A stretch of 27,368 nucleotides of DNA. It comes from a virus. Position 1 is the stretch's first letter. Every line of letters begins with the position of its first letter. Of this stretch, positions 8,093 through 27,368 are shown in pieces. The notes below the pieces were generated by a model. It worked only from the letters and a program-made list of their open reading frames with translations. It ran no database searches and was not told where the DNA came from. The position numbers and the translations under genes are program-made. The DNA lies in the IMG/VR virus record IMGVR_UViG_3300045303_000321, positions 1 to 27,368 of that record, one strand, 5' to 3'.

Positions 8093-9472
8093 ATGGTTTA
8101 TACACCAAGCATTAAGGTCAAGCCGGCCGTGCTTGTGCAGGCGGCTCTGTCCGCCCTGCGTGACGAGTTGGTCATCGCCAACACCGTCACCAAGCGCTCC
8201 GATATGAAGACGTTTTTTGCCAGCGCCGGCGATACCATCAGCCAGCGTGTCCGCGGCACCGTTCCGGTCCGTACCTACACCGCGCGCAACGATCGCTCGC
8301 AGCCCATCATCACGGACAACTACACCGAGACCGTGGTCACCCTGACCATCTCGGCCGACCGTCCGTACTCCGCCATCAAGATGACGGATGAGCAGAGGGA
8401 TTGGGATTTTCAGGATGGGTGGGGTGATCTGATCAATGCTCAGACCCAGTCTATTGCATCCTACCTCGAACACGGGGTTCTCAACCAGATCCTGAAGGCG
8501 CCGTACGAGCGCGTCATCCTGGTCCAGAACGACTCCACCGGCCTGACCAACGCCAAGGCCGCCATGCAGTCCGTTTTCTACAACGCTGTGGTCGAGGCCA
8601 AAAAGGCCCTCCGCCTCATGCGCACCCCGAACGAGCAGCTCTACTGCGTGTGCGGCGTCGACTTCGAGGAAGAGATCCTCAAGGATAACCGCTTCCTGAA
8701 AGATCAGGGAACGGGCGATAACGCTCTCACAAGTTCGACTCTTGGCTCGATTGCTGGCGTAAAATTCGTCAGCTCGACCCACATCCCCGCCGATGAAGCC
8801 TACATGTACGCCAGCTCTGGCTTTTTGGTGTTCACTGGTGTACCATCCATCCCCCAGTCCGTCCCCTTCGGAGCGACCGCAAATGCTTCCGGCTGGGCCT
8901 TGCGCTGGTTGATGGACTATGATACGGCGTATTTGACCGACAGGTCAATATTCGACTGCTACGCCGGCTACTCCTACGTGTGGGACCGCCTGCAGGTATT
9001 TGACGGATCCAGCCGCGAAATCGTCAGCACCGATCGTTACTTCGTGCGCGGCGTCAAGCTCGCCCTGAAGGCCACCTCCTCGGTCATCGAGAAGGTCCCG
9101 GGCGACGGCTCCACCACGACCCCCGGCGGCGATCCGAACTCCTTCCTGGCCAAGGCCTACGCCATGCTCCCGATCACCGGACCCGAGGTCCAGGGCGAGC
9201 CCTACCCGCTCGGCGGCAACTACCCGGGCGCCAAGGCCACTGCCACGGCAACGGCCACCCGCTCCGGTGGTGCCCTTACCGCTGTCGCGGTCACCGCCCA
9301 GGGTTACGGCTACACCTCCACTCCGGCCGTCACGGTCGCCGCCGCACCTTCTGGTGGCACCACCGCGACCGCAGTCGCGACCATCCACAACGGCCAGGTC
9401 GTCTCCATCGCGCTGACCAACGCGGGTGCGGGCTACCTCGCCACCCCGGCCGTCACCGTCGCAGCCCCGTAA
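8093..9472 (+). CDS. Major capsid protein with C-terminal repeat extension
   Basis: This 459-residue protein is placed as coat protein by position after the scaffold and by its fold-like features. The N-terminal part binds scaffold or portal region. The central sequence (ITDNYTETVVTLTISADRPYSAIKMTDEQ) resembles the P-loop strands and spine helix of HK97-fold capsids in actinophages. FFASAGDTISQRV and YVWDRLQVFDGSSREIVSTDRY are also typical. No N-terminal protease-cleaved delta domain is obvious. Residues about 380-459 form an Ala/Thr/Gly-rich tail with two GYGYTSTPAVTV-type repeats, probably displayed on the shell surface. Codon use is patchy, with lower GC at third positions around 8380-8470 and 8700-8960. 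AAGGGAAG (8081-8088) is four bases before the ATG. Confidence 0.92.
   Translation: MVYTPSIKVKPAVLVQAALSALRDELVIANTVTKRSDMKTFFASAGDTISQRVRGTVPVRTYTARNDRSQPIITDNYTETVVTLTISADRPYSAIKMTDEQRDWDFQDGWGDLINAQTQSIASYLEHGVLNQILKAPYERVILVQNDSTGLTNAKAAMQSVFYNAVVEAKKALRLMRTPNEQLYCVCGVDFEEEILKDNRFLKDQGTGDNALTSSTLGSIAGVKFVSSTHIPADEAYMYASSGFLVFTGVPSIPQSVPFGATANASGWALRWLMDYDTAYLTDRSIFDCYAGYSYVWDRLQVFDGSSREIVSTDRYFVRGVKLALKATSSVIEKVPGDGSTTTPGGDPNSFLAKAYAMLPITGPEVQGEPYPLGGNYPGAKATATATATRSGGALTAVAVTAQGYGYTSTPAVTVAAAPSGGTTATAVATIHNGQVVSIALTNAGAGYLATPAVTVAAP
9229..9469 (+). repeat. Two-unit GxGYxxxPxVTV repeat at the capsid C-terminus
   Basis: Two protein-level units of about 35-40 residues each end in GYGYTSTPAVTVAAAP and GAGYLATPAVTVAAP. 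Each is preceded by a strand-rich stretch (GGALTAVAVTAQ; NGQVVSIALTNA). The same unit type occurs twice at the end of the major tail protein (11891-12085). It is probably a surface beta domain. Confidence 0.75.
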
Positions 9473-9481
9473 GGATAAGCC

Positions 9482-9943
9482 ATGGCAGCCCTCGCAACAG
9501 TTGACCAGGTCGCGGCCCGCATCGGCGAGCCGATTGACGAACCTGACGACGTCGAGCTGGCCCTGGCGACCTTGGAAGAGGCCTCGAACCTTGTGAGGTT
9601 CTACGCTCAGCAGCCCCTGTGGACTGCTGTAACCGCCCCGGCAGTCGCCGTCACCATTGCGGTGGCGGCGGCCGCCCGCGGCTTCCTTAACCCGAGCGGG
9701 TTCGATATGGAGCGCGGCGATATGGCCACGCTGAAGAGGCCCTCCGAGTACACCTCCGGGTGTGCGCTGACGGCCGCGGAGATCACCATCGTCAAAGCCC
9801 TTGGCCACAGGGGCAACGTCCGTGCGCTCAAGGTGCACAACTCCGACCAGCCCGTCGCCCGTTCGCACTGGCGTCCGCGCGACCGCGGTTATGCCCCCCT
9901 GGACTGGGGCGACAACAAGCCCTTCCCGCTGGGGTACTGGTAA
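9482..9943 (+). CDS. Head-tail connector (adaptor) protein
   Basis: This 153-residue protein should bind the portal ring from outside and extend it. It starts MAALATVDQVAARIGEPID, then has a helix (DVELALATLEEASNLVRFYAQQ) and an alanine-rich segment (AVAVTIAVAAAARGFLNP). This is the arrangement of gp6/gp15-type adaptors encoded just after the capsid gene. The C-terminus ends with an aromatic LGYW. AAGGA (9471-9475) overlaps the capsid stop and is six bases before the ATG. The stop overlaps the next gene (TAATG). Confidence 0.72.
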   Translation: MAALATVDQVAARIGEPIDEPDDVELALATLEEASNLVRFYAQQPLWTAVTAPAVAVTIAVAAAARGFLNPSGFDMERGDMATLKRPSEYTSGCALTAAEITIVKALGHRGNVRALKVHNSDQPVARSHWRPRDRGYAPLDWGDNKPFPLGYW

Positions 9944-10293
9944 TGGCGCGCTCGGCCCTGCTCGACAGGGGCAGGGAACGCATGCTCATCTACCCCGAGG
10001 TCAGTACGATCAACGCCCGTGGCGACGAGATCCGGATCCCTTCCACTACTCCGGTAGAGATCCGCGTCATCGTCACCGCGCAGCGTCAGGGTGACTCCGA
10101 AATCGCCGGTCAGGTCTCCATCAAGATGCTCTACTGCATCACGCGCACCGCGCCGGTGGACTCCTGGGCCAAGGTCTTCTTCCGCGGCGAGGAGTGGGAC
10201 CTGGCGTCCCCTCCGCACCACTCGGTAGGCCTGTCCAGGAACCTGGACCACGTCGAGTTCATCATCCGCTCCCGGAACAAGATCGGGGACTGA
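9943..10293 (+). CDS. Head-tail stopper protein
   Basis: This 116-residue protein starts at the ATG of a TAATG overlap at 9943. The longer frame from 9760 lies inside the previous gene and is not real. It is almost all beta: LIYPEVSTINARGDEIRIPSTTPVEIRVIVT, then VSIKMLYCITRTAPVDSWAKVFFRGEEWDL. That pattern fits the small beta-barrel stoppers (SPP1 gp16 type) that close the head channel. The second position after the capsid is the usual place for this gene. Assignment is from fold pattern and synteny. Confidence 0.65.
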   Translation: MARSALLDRGRERMLIYPEVSTINARGDEIRIPSTTPVEIRVIVTAQRQGDSEIAGQVSIKMLYCITRTAPVDSWAKVFFRGEEWDLASPPHHSVGLSRNLDHVEFIIRSRNKIGD

Positions 10294-10294
10294 G

Positions 10295-10741
10295 ATGACT
10301 ACTTTCGGCGACATTGAATGGCTCACACCCGAAGGCGCCCCGGCGCCGCGACGCGGCAAGGGCTCGGTGGAGGACACGGTCTCCCACCTGCCCGAGGTCA
10401 AGCGTGCCGTCGCAGGCAAGGCCGAGGGCATGGGTCGGGAAGCGTCCATGTTGCTGCTGGCCCACCGCAAGACGGGCGCTGCCCACATCGTCGTCACCGA
10501 AGCGCCCCCGCACAAGCTTGACGCCACGATCGAGCTGCGCGACCCGGATCCGGGTGGCGCAGGGCACAGGCTGTCGAGGGTCCATGTCGGCGGGACGAAC
10601 GAGCAGGACCGCTCGGCAATGTCCATCGAATTCGGCTGGATGCAGACGCACGCCTTCGGCAAGAAGCTAAAGCATCCGGTCCACCATGACGGCCTGCACA
10701 TCCTGGAACGCGTCATGCGGGCCAATATCCGAGGAGGCTGA
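10295..10741 (+). CDS. Head-tail joining protein, DUF5403-like
   Basis: This 148-residue protein resembles the DUF5403 type found in actinophage connector regions and may correspond to HK97 gp10-like joining proteins. A helix with charged residues (VSHLPEVKRAVAGKAEGMGREASMLLLAHR) is followed by strands (AAHIVVTEAPPHKLDATIELRD) and a histidine-rich C-terminal part (HPVHHDGLHILERVMRANIRGG). The start lies two bases after the previous stop. AGGAGG at its 3' end serves the next gene. The role is inferred mainly from its place between stopper and tail terminator. Confidence 0.6.
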   Translation: MTTFGDIEWLTPEGAPAPRRGKGSVEDTVSHLPEVKRAVAGKAEGMGREASMLLLAHRKTGAAHIVVTEAPPHKLDATIELRDPDPGGAGHRLSRVHVGGTNEQDRSAMSIEFGWMQTHAFGKKLKHPVHHDGLHILERVMRANIRGG

Positions 10742-10743
10742 CC

Positions 10744-11262
10744 ATGGGCGACATCCACGACACCCCGGTCTTTGGCTCCGTCGACGACCTGGTCCACACG
10801 ATCTTCAAGGACTACTTCACCGGGGTGGACGTCCGCGTCCACACCACGTTCTCGGAGAATATGGACCTGCCCGCCATCGTGTCCCGCCGCGACCGGCGCT
10901 CCGGCACCATCGCCCTGCACAGCAAGGACGAACGCTTCATGCTGCCGGCCATCCTCATGGTCAGCACGCTGACCACCGGCGTTGATGGCGACGCGGATGG
11001 TGAGGCCCTGCAAGAGCAGTGCCGGCACGCCTTGTTCCGCGCGCAGCAGCAGCAGCTTGAAATCCCCGGCTGCGGCTCGATCGCCGTCATCCAGGGCTCG
11101 ACCCACCCGGCCAAGGTCTCGGACTGGCAGACCGCCACCAGCGTGGTCCAGTACGCCTCCCTGCCAAAGGGAGCCGTCCGCTACGAGGCCATCTACCGGA
11201 TCCTCATCCGACCTCCAGTTCAAAGCACAATCCACAACCGCTTCAAGCCCCCGCACCTATAG
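10744..11262 (+). CDS. Tail terminator protein
   Basis: This 172-residue protein precedes the major tail protein, the standard place for the ring protein that caps the tail tube and joins it to the head (lambda gpU/SPP1 gp17 type). It alternates strands and helices: DVRVHTTFSENMDLPAIVSRRDRRSG, FMLPAILMVSTLTTG, and a helix ALQEQCRHALFRAQQQQ. GAGGAGG (10731-10737) lies six bases before the ATG. The last codons and the stop lie inside a rho-independent terminator, so the 3' coding end and the terminator stem share sequence. Confidence 0.65.
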   Translation: MGDIHDTPVFGSVDDLVHTIFKDYFTGVDVRVHTTFSENMDLPAIVSRRDRRSGTIALHSKDERFMLPAILMVSTLTTGVDGDADGEALQEQCRHALFRAQQQQLEIPGCGSIAVIQGSTHPAKVSDWQTATSVVQYASLPKGAVRYEAIYRILIRPPVQSTIHNRFKPPHL

Positions 11263-11275
11263 CGAGGGCTTTTTT
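11245..11275 (+). terminator. Rho-independent terminator before the major tail protein gene
   Basis: AAGCCC (11245-11250) pairs with GGGCTT (11266-11271), with three more inner pairs after one mismatch, and T runs through 11275. It overlaps the stop codon at 11260-11262. A second small hairpin, GGGGC-CTGA-GCCCC (11279-11292), follows at once, before the GAGGAG ribosome binding site. Confidence 0.8.
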
Positions 11276-11311
11276 CTTGGGGCCTGAGCCCCTTCTTCGA
11301 GGAGAAATCTC

Positions 11312-12088
11312 ATGGCAATCGACAATACTGCCGTGCTGAAGGTCGGCACAGGCCATTTCTACACTGCGCCCGTCGGCACCGCCCTTCCCACGGACCTCCG
11401 CAATCCCGACAGCGGCACCTGGACCGAAGTGGGCCACACTTCCGTAACCAACATCCTGGCCGCCAGCTCCGACGGTGGCACGGAAACCATTCTGCGCTCC
11501 CTGCAGAACATCACCCTCCGGACCGCGATCGCACCGCGTACCGAATCCTTCGTGATGAAGCTCCTCCAGTTCGACCTTCCGGGATTGAAGCTCTATTACG
11601 GCTCGAACGCGACCGTGGTCAGCGGCAACCTCCAGGTCCCGTCCAACCCGGTCCCGACCGAGGTTGCATGGCTGGTCGTCTTCTACGACGGTTCCACCAC
11701 AGCGGGCGTCTACGCTCCCAAGGCCTCCATCATCCGCTCCGGTGACCTCGCTGTCGCCGACACGGAGACCCTGGCCGAGCTTGACGTCAAGGTCACCCCG
11801 CTGAACTACCTGGCGAATGACTACGCGATCGTCTGGATCCCGCCGAAGATCATCCTCTCCACCGCCACGGGAACCGCGGTGCGCACCTCCAACGCCGTCT
11901 CCGCCGTGAACCTCACCTCCGGCGGCTCCGGCTACTCCGCAGCCCCGACGGTGACCTTCTCTGGTGGAGCAGGCACGGGTGCTGCTGGCACCGCGATCAT
12001 CTCCGGCGGCGTCGTGACAGGCGTGACCATCACCGCAGGCGGTTCTGGCTACACCAGCGACCCCACGGTGACGTTCTCCGCGCCGTAG
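11312..12088 (+). CDS. Major tail tube protein with C-terminal repeat extension
   Basis: This 258-residue protein forms the stacked tail-tube rings. It has the beta-rich plan of actinophage major tail proteins: VLKVGTGHFYTAPVGTALPTDL at the start, WTEVGHTSVTNI, the ILRSLQNITLRTAIAPRTESFVM region and VAWLVVFYDGS. Residues about 194-258 are an extension with two units built around GSGYSAAPTVTFSGG and GSGYTSDPTVTFSAP, not needed for the tube fold and probably exposed along the tail. The same type of unit ends the capsid protein. GAGGAG (11299-11304) is seven bases before the ATG. It is followed by a strong hairpin and the tail chaperone genes. Confidence 0.9.
   Translation: MAIDNTAVLKVGTGHFYTAPVGTALPTDLRNPDSGTWTEVGHTSVTNILAASSDGGTETILRSLQNITLRTAIAPRTESFVMKLLQFDLPGLKLYYGSNATVVSGNLQVPSNPVPTEVAWLVVFYDGSTTAGVYAPKASIIRSGDLAVADTETLAELDVKVTPLNYLANDYAIVWIPPKIILSTATGTAVRTSNAVSAVNLTSGGSGYSAAPTVTFSGGAGTGAAGTAIISGGVVTGVTITAGGSGYTSDPTVTFSAP
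11891..12085 (+). repeat. Two-unit GSGYxxxPTVTFS repeat at the tail protein C-terminus
   Basis: Two units of about 30 residues share the pattern strand, then GGSGY, three residues, P-T-V-T-F-S. The second unit is preceded by GGVVTGVTITA. The pattern matches the capsid C-terminal repeat (9229-9469) at protein level. Confidence 0.75.
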
Positions 12089-18608: not shown

Positions 18609-19781
18609 GTGTTCGAGAACCCCTATGTGATCACCGTCTACTCGGCAGGCTCCTTCGCCGGGGATGCCGGGCACTGGGCCGCGGACGTGTGGGCCTTCGA
18701 GAAGCTCCAGATCACGCTGCGGCACAACGCCACCTCCACGGCGGCCATCACCGTGGCCATGTCCGACCCGGCGGCCGGGGCGCTCATCGAGCCCGGCGCC
18801 CGGATCAAGATCTGGAAGTCAGGCCAGCTGCTCATGACCGGGGTCCTGGACCTCGTCTCGGGCCAGGGCCCGTCCTTCTCCGGATCGGTCACCGCGACCT
18901 TCAACTCCGACTTCGCCATCCTGCACCACCTCGTCACCTTCCCCCAGCTCGCCGGCGGGTCCCTGACGGATGGCAACCTCTACTGGAAGATGAACGGCGC
19001 GGCCGAGACTGTGGCCAAGACGCTCATCTCCGAGAACGTGGCCGACCGCGGACTGTCCTACGTATCGATCGTCTCCTCCTCCGGGCGGGGCTCCACGATC
19101 GACGTGAAGACCCGCTTCGAGGAGCTGTACAACGCGCTCTACCCGCAGGTGGACAACGCCGACATCGGCCTGACGGCCGTGCACGACGGCACGCATATCG
19201 TCATCGATGCCTACGCGGTCACGGACTTCCCCGAGATCCTGGACGAGGCCTCCGGGGTCGTGGACAACTGGTCCTTCTCCTCGGCGGCCCCGACGGCGAA
19301 CCTCGTCTGGGCCGGCGCCTCGTACAACCCGTCCGGCAGTCCCGGCGTCTTCGAGGTGGAGTCCGCCCAGGATGCCACCTCGCGAGGGGTCTGGGGCACG
19401 CGCGAGTCCTACAAGGCCGCCCAGGGCGGCTCCGGCACCACCGAGGCCGATGTCATCGCCGCCTGCCACGCCGAAGCCGACGCAGGTGTCCTGGCCCTGG
19501 GTGAGCGCAACGGGATCTCGATCAAGCTCACCGACTCCGGGATGTTCAAGTACGGCGTGGACTCCGGCCTGCTGGTCGGCAAACGCGTCACCGTCGCCCT
19601 CGCGGGCGTGACCCGCACAGACATCCTGCGCGAGGTCCAGTTCGACTTCTCCCCGTCCACCGGGGACCAGACCACTCCGGTCGTAGGGGACATCTCCGGC
19701 GACCCGGACCACAACCTTGCGGCCTACATTGCATCGCTCCGCAAGGGCATCAAACGACTCGAAGCGAGGATTTCAAATTGA
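18609..19781 (+). CDS. Tail hub protein, ReqiPepy6 gp37-like
   Basis: This 390-residue protein resembles the Rhodococcus phage ReqiPepy6 gp37 family, the tail-associated hub (gp27/Tal-like) of many actinophages. Features include an N-terminal ITVYSAGSFAGDAGHW, the barrel segment IEPGARIKIWKSGQLLMTGVLD, DVKTRFEELYNALYPQVDNAD, and the C-terminal GISIKLTDSGMFKYGVDSG followed by VGKRVTVALAGVTRTDILRE. It ends in a coiled stretch (LAAYIASLRKGIKRLEARI) that could lead to the fibre. No peptidoglycan hydrolase domain is seen. The GTG start is one base after the previous stop; the stop overlaps the next TTG start. Confidence 0.82.
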   Translation: MFENPYVITVYSAGSFAGDAGHWAADVWAFEKLQITLRHNATSTAAITVAMSDPAAGALIEPGARIKIWKSGQLLMTGVLDLVSGQGPSFSGSVTATFNSDFAILHHLVTFPQLAGGSLTDGNLYWKMNGAAETVAKTLISENVADRGLSYVSIVSSSGRGSTIDVKTRFEELYNALYPQVDNADIGLTAVHDGTHIVIDAYAVTDFPEILDEASGVVDNWSFSSAAPTANLVWAGASYNPSGSPGVFEVESAQDATSRGVWGTRESYKAAQGGSGTTEADVIAACHAEADAGVLALGERNGISIKLTDSGMFKYGVDSGLLVGKRVTVALAGVTRTDILREVQFDFSPSTGDQTTPVVGDISGDPDHNLAAYIASLRKGIKRLEARISN

Positions 19782-20755
19782 CCTCCACCTTTTACGACGG
19801 CTCCGTCGATGAGGCTGCGTGGGCCACAGCCATTACCGGGGTCTCCGCCTCGTCCTACGGTGTGCGCACCCCGGCCGACTGGAAGATCACCGCAGTGTCG
19901 GCGGCCGACCGTACGGTCGCCGTGGCCCCGGGCAGCGGCTGGGGACAGGGCGTCTACGACACCACGACCGCCGAGCAGACCATCCAGCTGGATATCTGCA
20001 GCTCCGGCTACCGCTGGGACCTCGTGGCCTGGCGGCGCGACTGGTCCACAAACTCCACAACGCTGGTCAAGATCAACGGCAACGCCACCAAGGCGATCCC
20101 CTCCGGACGGCTGACCAACCCCGGCACGACCGATGACCAGCCGCTCGCGCTGGTGAAGATCGTCGCCGGGGCGTCGCAGCCCGCGGAGATCGTGGACTTG
20201 AGGATCTGGGCCGGCAACGGCGGCCTCTTCGCCAAGGACGAACTCGTCCTGACCTACCTGACGAACGCCGGCGCCGAGCTGGCGATCAACGACGCGGTCT
20301 GGAAGTCCACCGTCGGTACGGGCGACACCGTCGCCTGGACCAAGGTCTCCCAGTCCGGCTACATCCCACTCTTCGGCGTCGGCCCCACCCTGGCCGGGGG
20401 CGTCCCGCCCAACGGCACACTCTTCCTGATCCAGGCCGGCACCACCGTGCAGTACACCGACAACAGCTCCTACGCCCGGATCACCTGGCCCAAGCCGTTC
20501 CCCAACGGCCTCCTCATGGTCATGGGGGTCGGCGGGGATGACTGGGCCCACGGCGGCTCCGCGCAGTTCGAATCCGCCGGCGGTGCAGGCTTCGGGCCCT
20601 CCGGCGGCGGCACCCGCACCGACTGGGTCTATGCCATGAAGAGCCAGCCGGCCTCCGCCAACGGCTCGGTCTCCCCGCTGGGCAACCTCATCCTGGGCCG
20701 GGCCGGCAACGCCAACAGGGTTCACCGTATTAACTGGATTGCGATCGGATGGTAA
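19778..20755 (+). CDS. Minor tail protein / tail fibre with lectin-like C-terminus
   Basis: This 325-residue protein begins at TTG 19778, four bases inside the previous gene, with GCGAGGA seven bases upstream. The N-terminal half (MTSTFYDGSVDEAAWATAI, DRTVAVAPGSGWGQGVYDT, RWDLVAWRRDWSTNST) matches the upper-baseplate-like domain seen in actinophage fibres. The C-terminal third (TWPKPFPNGLLMVMGVGGDDW through HRINWIAIGW) resembles the gp53-like C-terminal beta-sandwich of tail fibres, a likely receptor-binding part. It lies in the tail-tip cluster. Assignment of the domains is from memory of family patterns. Confidence 0.75.
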   Translation: MTSTFYDGSVDEAAWATAITGVSASSYGVRTPADWKITAVSAADRTVAVAPGSGWGQGVYDTTTAEQTIQLDICSSGYRWDLVAWRRDWSTNSTTLVKINGNATKAIPSGRLTNPGTTDDQPLALVKIVAGASQPAEIVDLRIWAGNGGLFAKDELVLTYLTNAGAELAINDAVWKSTVGTGDTVAWTKVSQSGYIPLFGVGPTLAGGVPPNGTLFLIQAGTTVQYTDNSSYARITWPKPFPNGLLMVMGVGGDDWAHGGSAQFESAGGAGFGPSGGGTRTDWVYAMKSQPASANGSVSPLGNLILGRAGNANRVHRINWIAIGW

Positions 20756-24620: not shown

Positions 24621-24881
24621 ATGGCTAACCATGCCGCCGTTTCCGCCACCTCCATCCTGGACTCCGTCGCCACGTCCCCGTGGGCCCGCACGCTGTGGCA
24701 GGGTTTCATCGTCGATGCCCTCGTGGCCATCGGCCTGGGCCTGGCCGTCCTGCTGTCCACCGGCGACCTGATGTCCCCGGCCTTCTGGGGCGCCGTCGGA
24801 CTGCTGGTGGGCAAGTCCTTCCTCACCGCCCTGGCGTCCTGGCTGACCCGTCTGAAGGTCACGGCGACCCCCGGTGCCTAA
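24621..24881 (+). CDS. Holin, two transmembrane segments
   Basis: This 86-residue protein lies two bases after the endolysin. AAAGGAG (24607-24613) is seven bases before the ATG. Two hydrophobic segments occur at about residues 28-47 ([19 protein letters not shown]) and 53-76 ([21 protein letters not shown]). A polar N-terminus and a basic C-terminus ([13 protein letters not shown]) give the size, topology and position of a small two-segment holin that would release the amidase through the membrane. Two other membrane proteins sit just upstream, so which one triggers lysis is open. The next gene overlaps its end by eight bases. Confidence 0.8.
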
Positions 24882-27368
24882 TCCCGATGGTATGAAGTAC
24901 TGCCGCGTGGAGGGCCGCTTCAGGGCCTTCCTCGCGGACGGTACCGACGCGGGCTCCGAGCCCGACTTCGCCCCCATGGCCGGGACGGTCACCTTTTCCG
25001 CGAACATCACCAACGCCCGCAACACCACCGTGGGCGCCCAGGAGATCTACTTCCCGCAGGATGTGGTGGCCACCCTGGACGCGGACGGTGACCTGTCCCT
25101 GAACACGGACAAGTTCGTGTACCTGCTGTGCCCTTCGGATCCACTCACCCCGACCAGCTGGAACTGGACGGCGACCTTCAGGGTCAAGCTGCCCAACGGC
25201 AAGCTGGTCCGGAACTTCGGCCCCTTCCCGTTCGACGTCGTACCCGACGGAACGGTGGACCTTGCCGTAGCACTTCCGGTTCCGGCGGCCAACGGCACCT
25301 GGGCCATCATCGGCCCCGCCGGCCCGGTCGGCCCCACGGGGGCCGTCGGAGCAACAGGGGCCACCGGTCCCACTGGGGCTACCGGCCCACAGGGCCCACA
25401 AGGCCCCCAGGGCGCCGCTTCCACCGTCCCAGGTCCTACAGGCCCGACAGGGCCTACGGGCCCCACAGGGGCCACAGGAGCCGCGGGAGCGGCAGGTGCC
25501 AAGGGTGACAAGGGGGATCCCGGAGACGCGGGAGCCACCGGTGCCACGGGCGCCGCAGGCGCGACCGGAGCCACGGGATCCACCGGACCCCAGGGTCCGA
25601 CCGGCGCCACCGGTGCGCAGGGTCCCAAGGGGGATAAGGGCGATACCGGAGACACCGGGCCTGCGGGTTCCACCGGCGCGACCGGCGCCGCAGGCGCCAA
25701 GGGGGATACCGGGGATACAGGCCCTGCAGGGGCGGATTCGACCGTCCCCGGCCCGACCGGACCGACCGGCCCCGCAGGGGCCGACGGAGCGCCCGGCAAC
25801 GACAACCTCATCGTCCTCGCACCCGGAGACACGGTTCCCGGCGGCACCGCCGCGGACACCGTCATCGTCCGTCCGGTCGATCCGGACGCCCCGGTCAACT
25901 ACTTCCCCAACCCGGACCTGAGCCTGACCGCAGCCGGCGGCGTGGTGGCCAACCTCAGCTGTGAGGCCGACGGCACGTTGACGCGCGACACTCTGCGCGG
26001 ATCCACCGTGGTGGCGCTGGGCACGGCGGAGGGGGGCAGCGGATCGAAGACACTGGTCGTGGGCGACTCGTTCGAATTCAACATGACCGAATGGCTGGAG
26101 TCCGACACCGAATACATCCTGTCCCTCGACATGATGTCCGGAGAGACCGCCCCCACCTTCCCCGACCAGGGTGGGTGGGCGGACATCGCCTGCATCGCCA
26201 CTGTTGCCGACAACTCGGACAACAACCTCCGCATTTCCTGGTGGCCCACGCCGAAACTGACCGGGCCGAACCAGGCCCGCCGCGTCCACATGCCGCTCCG
26301 GGCGGTCGATGTGAACGGCGCGCAGGTTGCGTCCGCCCACGTCGCCGTGTACGGCCTGGCCGACTCGGCGCCCACCTATTTCGACAACGTCTCCATCACC
26401 AAGACGGTCCTCTATGGCCAGCAGGTCGGCATCCCGGCCGACACCCTCGACGGCATCGCACTGGGGCTCGCCCCCGGCACCACCAGGGCGCTGTGGATTG
26501 TGACCTACAACGAGATCACCCCCACATATACGGTCAACGTGGACGGCGTCCCGCTCGACCTTGCCGCACAGCCTGGGCACGGCCCGGGCGGCGGCATGTA
26601 TGAGATCACCGTCCCGTCCGATGCCACCACCGTCTCCATCGTCCTGGAGCCGATGGACGGCAACATTTGGAACCTGACCGTCACCGACGTCCCGGTCACC
26701 GTGGCCTTCCCCAGCCCCGGCATCACCGTCTGGGACGGGACCGTCGAGGTTCCGGCCCCGGCAGGCCTCCGCGGGCTTCGCGGCCCCGCCGGACCCACAG
26801 GTGCCACCGGGCCGACAGGACCGGCGGGAGCCGACGGCATCAACGGAGCCAACGGCATCAACGGTTCCAACGGAGCCACGGGGGCTACGGGCCCCAAGGG
26901 GGATACCGGCGACACCGGCCCTGCCGGGCCCACCGGGGCAACCGGCGCCACAGGCGCAGCGGGATCGGCCGGCGCCACCGGGGCCACCGGACCTGCAGGC
27001 CCGACGGGCCCTGCCGGGCCCACGGGAGCTACCGGCGCCACCGGAGCCGCAGGCGCCACGGGCGCCCAGGGCATCCAGGGTATCCAGGGCCCCACGGGCG
27101 CCACCGGCGCGACAGGCCCTGCCGGGGCCGACGGTGCGGCCGGTGCGACCGGTGCCACGGGACCCATGGGACCTGCGGGCAGTGCGGTCACTGTAAGCCA
27201 CGTCTACACGGCCCAGAACCTCACGGGCGCGAACCCCACGATCTCGGTAACTGACACACCGAGCGCAGGAGACGTCCTGGTCCTGATTTCCGGCAACGTC
27301 GGCGCAGCCGCAATCTCCGCAGTCAGCGGCTGCGGTGCGACCTGGACCGCTGTCAGCAGCTTCAACGG
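24874..27368 (+). CDS. Collagen-like tail fibre or minor tail protein, partial
   Basis: The reading frame runs off the right edge (at least 831 residues). GTG 24874 ([14 protein letters not shown]) overlaps the holin by eight bases, like other junctions here; ATG 24892 is an alternative, and neither has a strong ribosome binding site. Order: an N-terminal beta domain (about 1-146) with [20 protein letters not shown]; a Gly-X-Y collagen run at 25312-25800; a central module starting [15 protein letters not shown] and ending near 26760; a second collagen run at 26764-27183; then a C-terminal globular part ([20 protein letters not shown]) that is incomplete. Collagen-like stalks form trimers in phage fibres. 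Gly-Ala-Thr and Gly-Pro-Thr triplets dominate, with Lys-Gly-Asp triplets that can stabilise triple helices. It is likely a host-binding fibre encoded after the lysis genes. Confidence 0.85.
25312..25800 (+). repeat. First collagen-like Gly-X-Y run
   Basis: More than 50 triplets, broken briefly at [11 protein letters not shown] and [11 protein letters not shown], which look like copies of one another. [16 protein letters not shown] and [13 protein letters not shown] are near-duplicates about 20 triplets into the second half. The DNA is repetitive enough to expand or contract by recombination. Confidence 0.9.
26764..27183 (+). repeat. Second collagen-like Gly-X-Y run
   Basis: About 46 triplets from [13 protein letters not shown] to GPMGPAGSA. 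It includes an Asn-rich stretch ([13 protein letters not shown]), another [13 protein letters not shown] copy, and [13 protein letters not shown], a motif also common in other phage and spore collagens. Confidence 0.9.

Follow-up and report, generated by a model that had tools for sequence, protein, structure and literature searches.

Homologous two-unit modules at the C-termini of the major capsid and major tail proteins of an actinobacterial siphophage-like virus

In the virus examined here, homologous copies of one two-unit module stand at the C-termini of two proteins whose cores are unrelated, the major capsid protein (MCP) and the major tail protein (MTP). The window, that is, the whole stretch of DNA that was analysed, corresponds to a complete IMG/VR virus record, 27,368 bases long. 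Its genes are arranged as is usual for siphophage-like viruses: terminase, portal, protease, scaffold, MCP, four connectors, MTP, two chaperones, tape measure and distal tail. Just past the distal tail genes lies a protein (positions 19778-20752) with an N-terminal match to the phage 'lectin' family phrog_1910 (1e-8), and an 831-residue collagen-like/tail-fibre protein (24874-27366) is open-ended, being cut by the end of the record.

The MCP gene (8093-9472, + strand, 459 aa) and the MTP gene (11312-12088, + strand, 258 aa) are separated by the adaptor (9482-9943), the Hc1 stopper (ending at 10293), the Ne1-like gene (10295-10741) and the terminator (10744-11262). The MCP comprises an HK97-type core (residues 1-340, 8093..9112, + strand), a linker (PGDGSTTTPGG..EPYPLGGNYPGA, residues ~341-379, 9113..9229, + strand) that is kept in relatives whether or not these have the module, and the module itself (residues 380-459, 9230..9469, + strand). 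The MTP comprises a tube-forming core (residues 1-182, 11312..11857, + strand) followed directly by the module (residues 183-258, 11858..12085, + strand); both modules were delimited by sequence comparison and predicted strands. The MCP core, which was delimited with the help of structure alignment, matches the phrog_283 profile (6.4e-30), and MCP residues 7-298 match Douge gp8 (8zdh, 6.4e-27), which places the protein in the Douge gp8/phrog_283 HK97-type group. MTP residues 1-178 belong to PF25681 (Phage_TTP_17; 7e-37, 127.4 bits against a curated cut-off of 27 bits), and the MTP core also matches Bxb1 gp19 (9d93, 1e-17).

The C-terminal ~79 residues of the MCP and ~76 residues of the MTP consist of two units each, of 34-37 residues per unit, and every unit ends in G-x-G-Y-x3-P-x-V-T. 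The motif is exact in 4/4 units (GYGY-TST-PAVTV and GAGY-LAT-PAVTV in the MCP, GSGY-SAA-PTVTF and GSGY-TSD-PTVTF in the MTP), and the pairs fit the paired-unit profile of the GxGY-P-V-T phage structural repeat, with conserved G-x-G-Y, P and V. The Smith-Waterman score between the two tails is 151, compared with a mean of 51 and a maximum of 88 in 5000 shuffles, and units one and two score 94 within the MCP and 97 within the MTP (shuffled maxima 60 and 64); between the cores, scores are like those of shuffled sequences. Alignment of ortholog profiles with hhalign gave a probability of 99.8 (E 2.9e-28) for the tails and of 0.6 for the cores. The first-pass annotation had proposed that two units of a shared repeat end two otherwise unrelated proteins encoded four genes apart, and had set profile-profile comparison beforehand as a possible refutation; the comparison instead found the tails alike. 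Its spans need one correction, since both proteins do carry two units but the MTP repeat begins at about residue 183 (11858-11861) and not at 194. Within the 27.4-kb record no protein other than the MCP and MTP carries the module. Core and module form one open frame in both genes, and every MCP and MTP copy should therefore display the module.

AlphaFold models of both tails contain six strands in two sets of three, alike in the two proteins at an offset of 199-202 residues. The MCP strands fall at residues 385-391, 394-402, 412-415, 426-432, 435-443 and 454-456 (pLDDT 79-89) and the MTP strands at 186-192, 195-203, 213-217, 225-231, 234-242 and 252-256 (pLDDT 86-96). The MCP core is poorly modelled (mean pLDDT 57), and MCP residues 363-379 also have low pLDDT. 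Structure alignment of the MCP to Douge gp8 (8zdh) stops at residue 331 (Z 11.8), that of the MTP to Bxb1 gp19 (9d93) covers residues 2-180 (Z 13.5) with core alignments ending at ~181, and whichever tube or HK97 protein was aligned, those of Bxb1 and Douge included, the alignment stops short of the module. Because the alignments end at these points, the module is predicted to lie outside the HK97 and tube folds, and the models and alignments thus speak against a location of the repeats inside either fold, which had been put forward as grounds for rejecting the first-pass annotation. Searches of PDB folds with the full-length MCP and MTP models were filled by matches to the core domains and are uninformative on the module. 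A search of BFVD returned a cyanophage neck protein, and also one match spanning 78 columns (1.8 A, 49% identity).

The module belongs to a repeat family for which Pfam and NCBIfam hold no model. No Pfam Ig family was found in the MCP, the MTP or 13 module sequences in a scan that does find Big_2 in the MCP and MTP of phage Chaser, and Pfam does not recognise the repeat as Ig-like, in keeping with the different repeat family proposed at the outset. When the module profile was searched against PDB sequences, only chance-level matches came back, ligand-binding families gave no sequence match to the module, and a literature search for the motif letters found nothing. A lectin identity was considered and dropped, the best PDB sequence match being the OAA lectin at a chance-level E of 0.1. 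Profile search does link the module to phrog_460 (9e-15), phrog_19630 (2e-12) and phrog_701 (3e-12), and GxGY-P-V-T repeats of the same family, often paired, are common in other phages, chiefly in the neck protein Hc2, baseplate wedge and tail fibres of T4-like cyanophages (phrog_460, 708, 5342, 701, 19630). The cyanophage repeats sit inside these large proteins of unrelated phages, whereas in this actinobacterial siphophage-like virus they stand at the ends of the MCP and MTP. A tblastn search of a phage collection with this phage's own module gave no match, likely owing to the low-complexity filter, while a less biased module copy matched 156 records. One baseplate-wedge-like protein of 1458 residues (L060:4028-8401) contains 15 overlapping module hits. 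Among 206 genomes searched in the genus Arthrobacter the module is present in seven, four times in prophage MCP/MTP genes and three times in chromosomal open frames of ~1900-1965 aa. The one of these three that was read (L132:544-6204) is a predicted secreted bacterial multicopper oxidase with C-terminal Big_5 domains and several GxGY units; bacteria, too, use the repeat in a protein predicted to be extracellular.

Decoration of both the MCP and MTP C-termini is a known architecture, and it is the module filling the two slots that differs here. The mycobacteriophages Douge, Chaser and CicholasNage have homologous MCP and MTP and a matching gene order, and, as in this phage, one related decoration domain at both C-termini; the two end domains score 163 in Chaser and 120 in CicholasNage (Smith-Waterman; shuffled maxima 83 and 74). 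The Douge-type domain is Big_2 (PF02368), as Pfam reports for both end domains of Chaser, and the module of this phage is not detectably related to it (hhalign 0.4-1.1%). The novelty implied earlier for decorating both proteins is accordingly weakened. The Douge virion bears 919 such projecting domains, and the recombinant MCP and tail tube protein (TTP) domains bind Mycobacterium smegmatis but not Escherichia coli, as well as LAM/AM and alpha-glucan fragments (PMC13033339). Decorations of the tail tube in a single protein are represented by lambda gpV (Big_2), T5 pb6 and the FN3 extension of SPP1 gp17.1 (PMC8718954). These likewise end in a beta domain that projects from the tail tube, as is predicted for the MTP described here, although the fold families differ. 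In SPP1 a frameshift adds the extension, in the other frame, to part of the copies, whereas here the module is in frame, on all copies, and on the capsid too.

By analogy with Douge, where an attachment role has been shown for Big_2/Ig-like domains that occupy these two positions but are of unrelated origin, the module most likely serves as an interchangeable virion decoration for low-affinity, multivalent attachment to the host surface, and we hold this reading with fair confidence. In-frame fusion would put the module on every MCP and MTP copy, so that, judging from usual copy numbers, several hundred modules would stud head and tail; acting at low affinity and high avidity, they would keep the particle close to the cell until the baseplate engages its receptor. 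We infer that the module is exposed on the surface of the real virion and binds a ligand, and that this ligand would be a glycan, probably of Arthrobacter-like Micrococcaceae; the relatives of this soil phage include Arthrobacter prophages, which give a lead to the host. A multivalent coat over the virion, as first suggested, is plausible for a module that is read in frame on both proteins and is predicted to lie outside their cores. Mean identity is 78.6% for the module and 83.5% for the core in the MCP, and 79.4% for both in the MTP. The module thus evolves only slightly faster than the core in the one protein and no faster in the other, and for this reason there is no arms-race signature.

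We compared about 30 close IMG/VR relatives and several Arthrobacter prophages, and found four states. Both C-termini carry the module in this phage's clade, in every member sampled, and in the prophage of Arthrobacter sp. 18067 (L111). The module is on the MTP only in L040, L042, L045 and the Arthrobacter prophages ISL-95 and MYb23; the MCP of Arthrobacter prophages L105 and L106 is likewise without it. In L044 the module is on the MTP, and a 74-aa in-frame module insertion is present in the MCP (L044:2856-4238), between the last HK97 strand and the EIKPGDG linker, a site that differs from that in this phage's MCP. Neither protein carries it in L024, L025, Glutamicibacter L107 or any of the relatives sampled from Streptomyces and Nocardioides. 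Absence in L023 and L015 is only apparent and reflects contig ends. No third carrier protein and no genome with the module on the MCP only was found in the stretches of the relatives that were examined. Since relatives lack it on the MCP or on both proteins, the module is apparently dispensable for assembly; it is an accessory that is gained, lost and moved between the MTP and MCP genes of related phages. Two other variations at the end of the tube protein were observed. In the Streptomyces phages Rana and Marav (L102:5001-5750, L103:5001-5738) the same MTP core is followed by a different segment of ~72-76 residues (TTAWTTGQYV-LGD), which Endor2 does not have, constituting another C-terminal swap. 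In L005 (3329-4246) the MTP frame shifts, relative to L004, near the end of unit two (GYTSAPSRGYRSS..), so that the last strand is swapped for a longer unrelated tail, either through sequencing error or through a real frameshift.

The same distribution bears on the possibility that the module is a structural brace without a ligand, which packs on adjacent subunits and lends stability to the capsid and the tube. Its retention throughout this phage's clade and its only slightly faster evolution in the MCP would suit such a role, and the Ig-like domain of the Douge MCP does also help to form contacts between subunits. A specific interface is nevertheless unlikely, because L044 carries the module at a different MCP site, in an MCP that shares 93-94% identity with those of L042 and L045, which are without the module; moreover, the same module is found on the MCP and the MTP despite their unrelated surfaces. 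We therefore regard bracing as unlikely, though the best placed of the alternatives to attachment.

The first-pass annotation further implied lateral spread of the repeat within one genome, which, as a recent event, is contradicted by the module phylogeny. Module trees separate by gene with support of 0.98-0.995, the MCP and MTP modules are as similar within genomes (0.542 amino acid identity) as between genomes (0.547), and the nearest counterpart of an MCP module is seldom the MTP module from its own genome. These gene-wise clades and equal identities argue against recent copying in this genome, as does L111, which carries the same MCP-type module at the same MCP site. A recent duplication in this virus, from the MTP onto the MCP or the reverse, would account for the homology of the modules and for their being closer to each other (0.54) than to the modules of other phages (0.45 and 0.48), but given the trees it is very improbable. 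As the MCP and MTP modules are mutually closer than either is to those of other phages, the two may go back to one old source within the group, and a duplication between the MCP and MTP genes in a distant ancestor is likewise possible.

The data instead show a single old acquisition for each gene in this clade and a separate, MTP-like transfer into another MCP site in L044. The MCP module of L044 groups with MTP modules, beside that of L111 (81.8/87), in a tree with outside modules that was built on a reduced sequence set and in which many nodes are weakly supported. Its mean identity is 0.646 to MTP modules, 0.505 to MCP modules and 0.45 to other modules; to the MTP module of the same genome it is 0.595. 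An MTP-type module thus likely entered the MCP gene of L044, from a related phage rather than from its own genome; the shortness of the module, ~75 residues, keeps the support for this moderate.

A selfish or neutral Gly/Thr/Val-rich low-complexity repeat, spread by slippage and having neither a folded domain nor a role, is the least probable alternative, for although its composition is biased, BLAST filtering appears to mask it and gain within a close group is seen in L044, the MTP module has a high-confidence fold prediction, the motif residues are preserved across >20 genomes, paired units are usual among many unrelated proteins carrying the repeat, and the MCP and MTP modules are alike along the full length of both units.

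Returning to attachment, we tentatively put forward a fuller picture, which we rate as somewhat short of an even chance: an unclassified two-unit glycan-binding module may serve as an interchangeable coat of the whole virion, in the slots that mycobacteriophages fill with Big_2, and may have entered the MCP at least two times, each time at a different site and in one case from a donor of MTP type. The comparison of L044 with L042 and L045 offers a natural experiment on the value of capsid decoration for adsorption. In two distant phage groups the MCP and MTP C-terminal slots are filled by related copies of one domain per group, the domains of the two groups being unrelated, and this paired filling suggests that there has been selection to cover the entire virion with a single type of adhesin.
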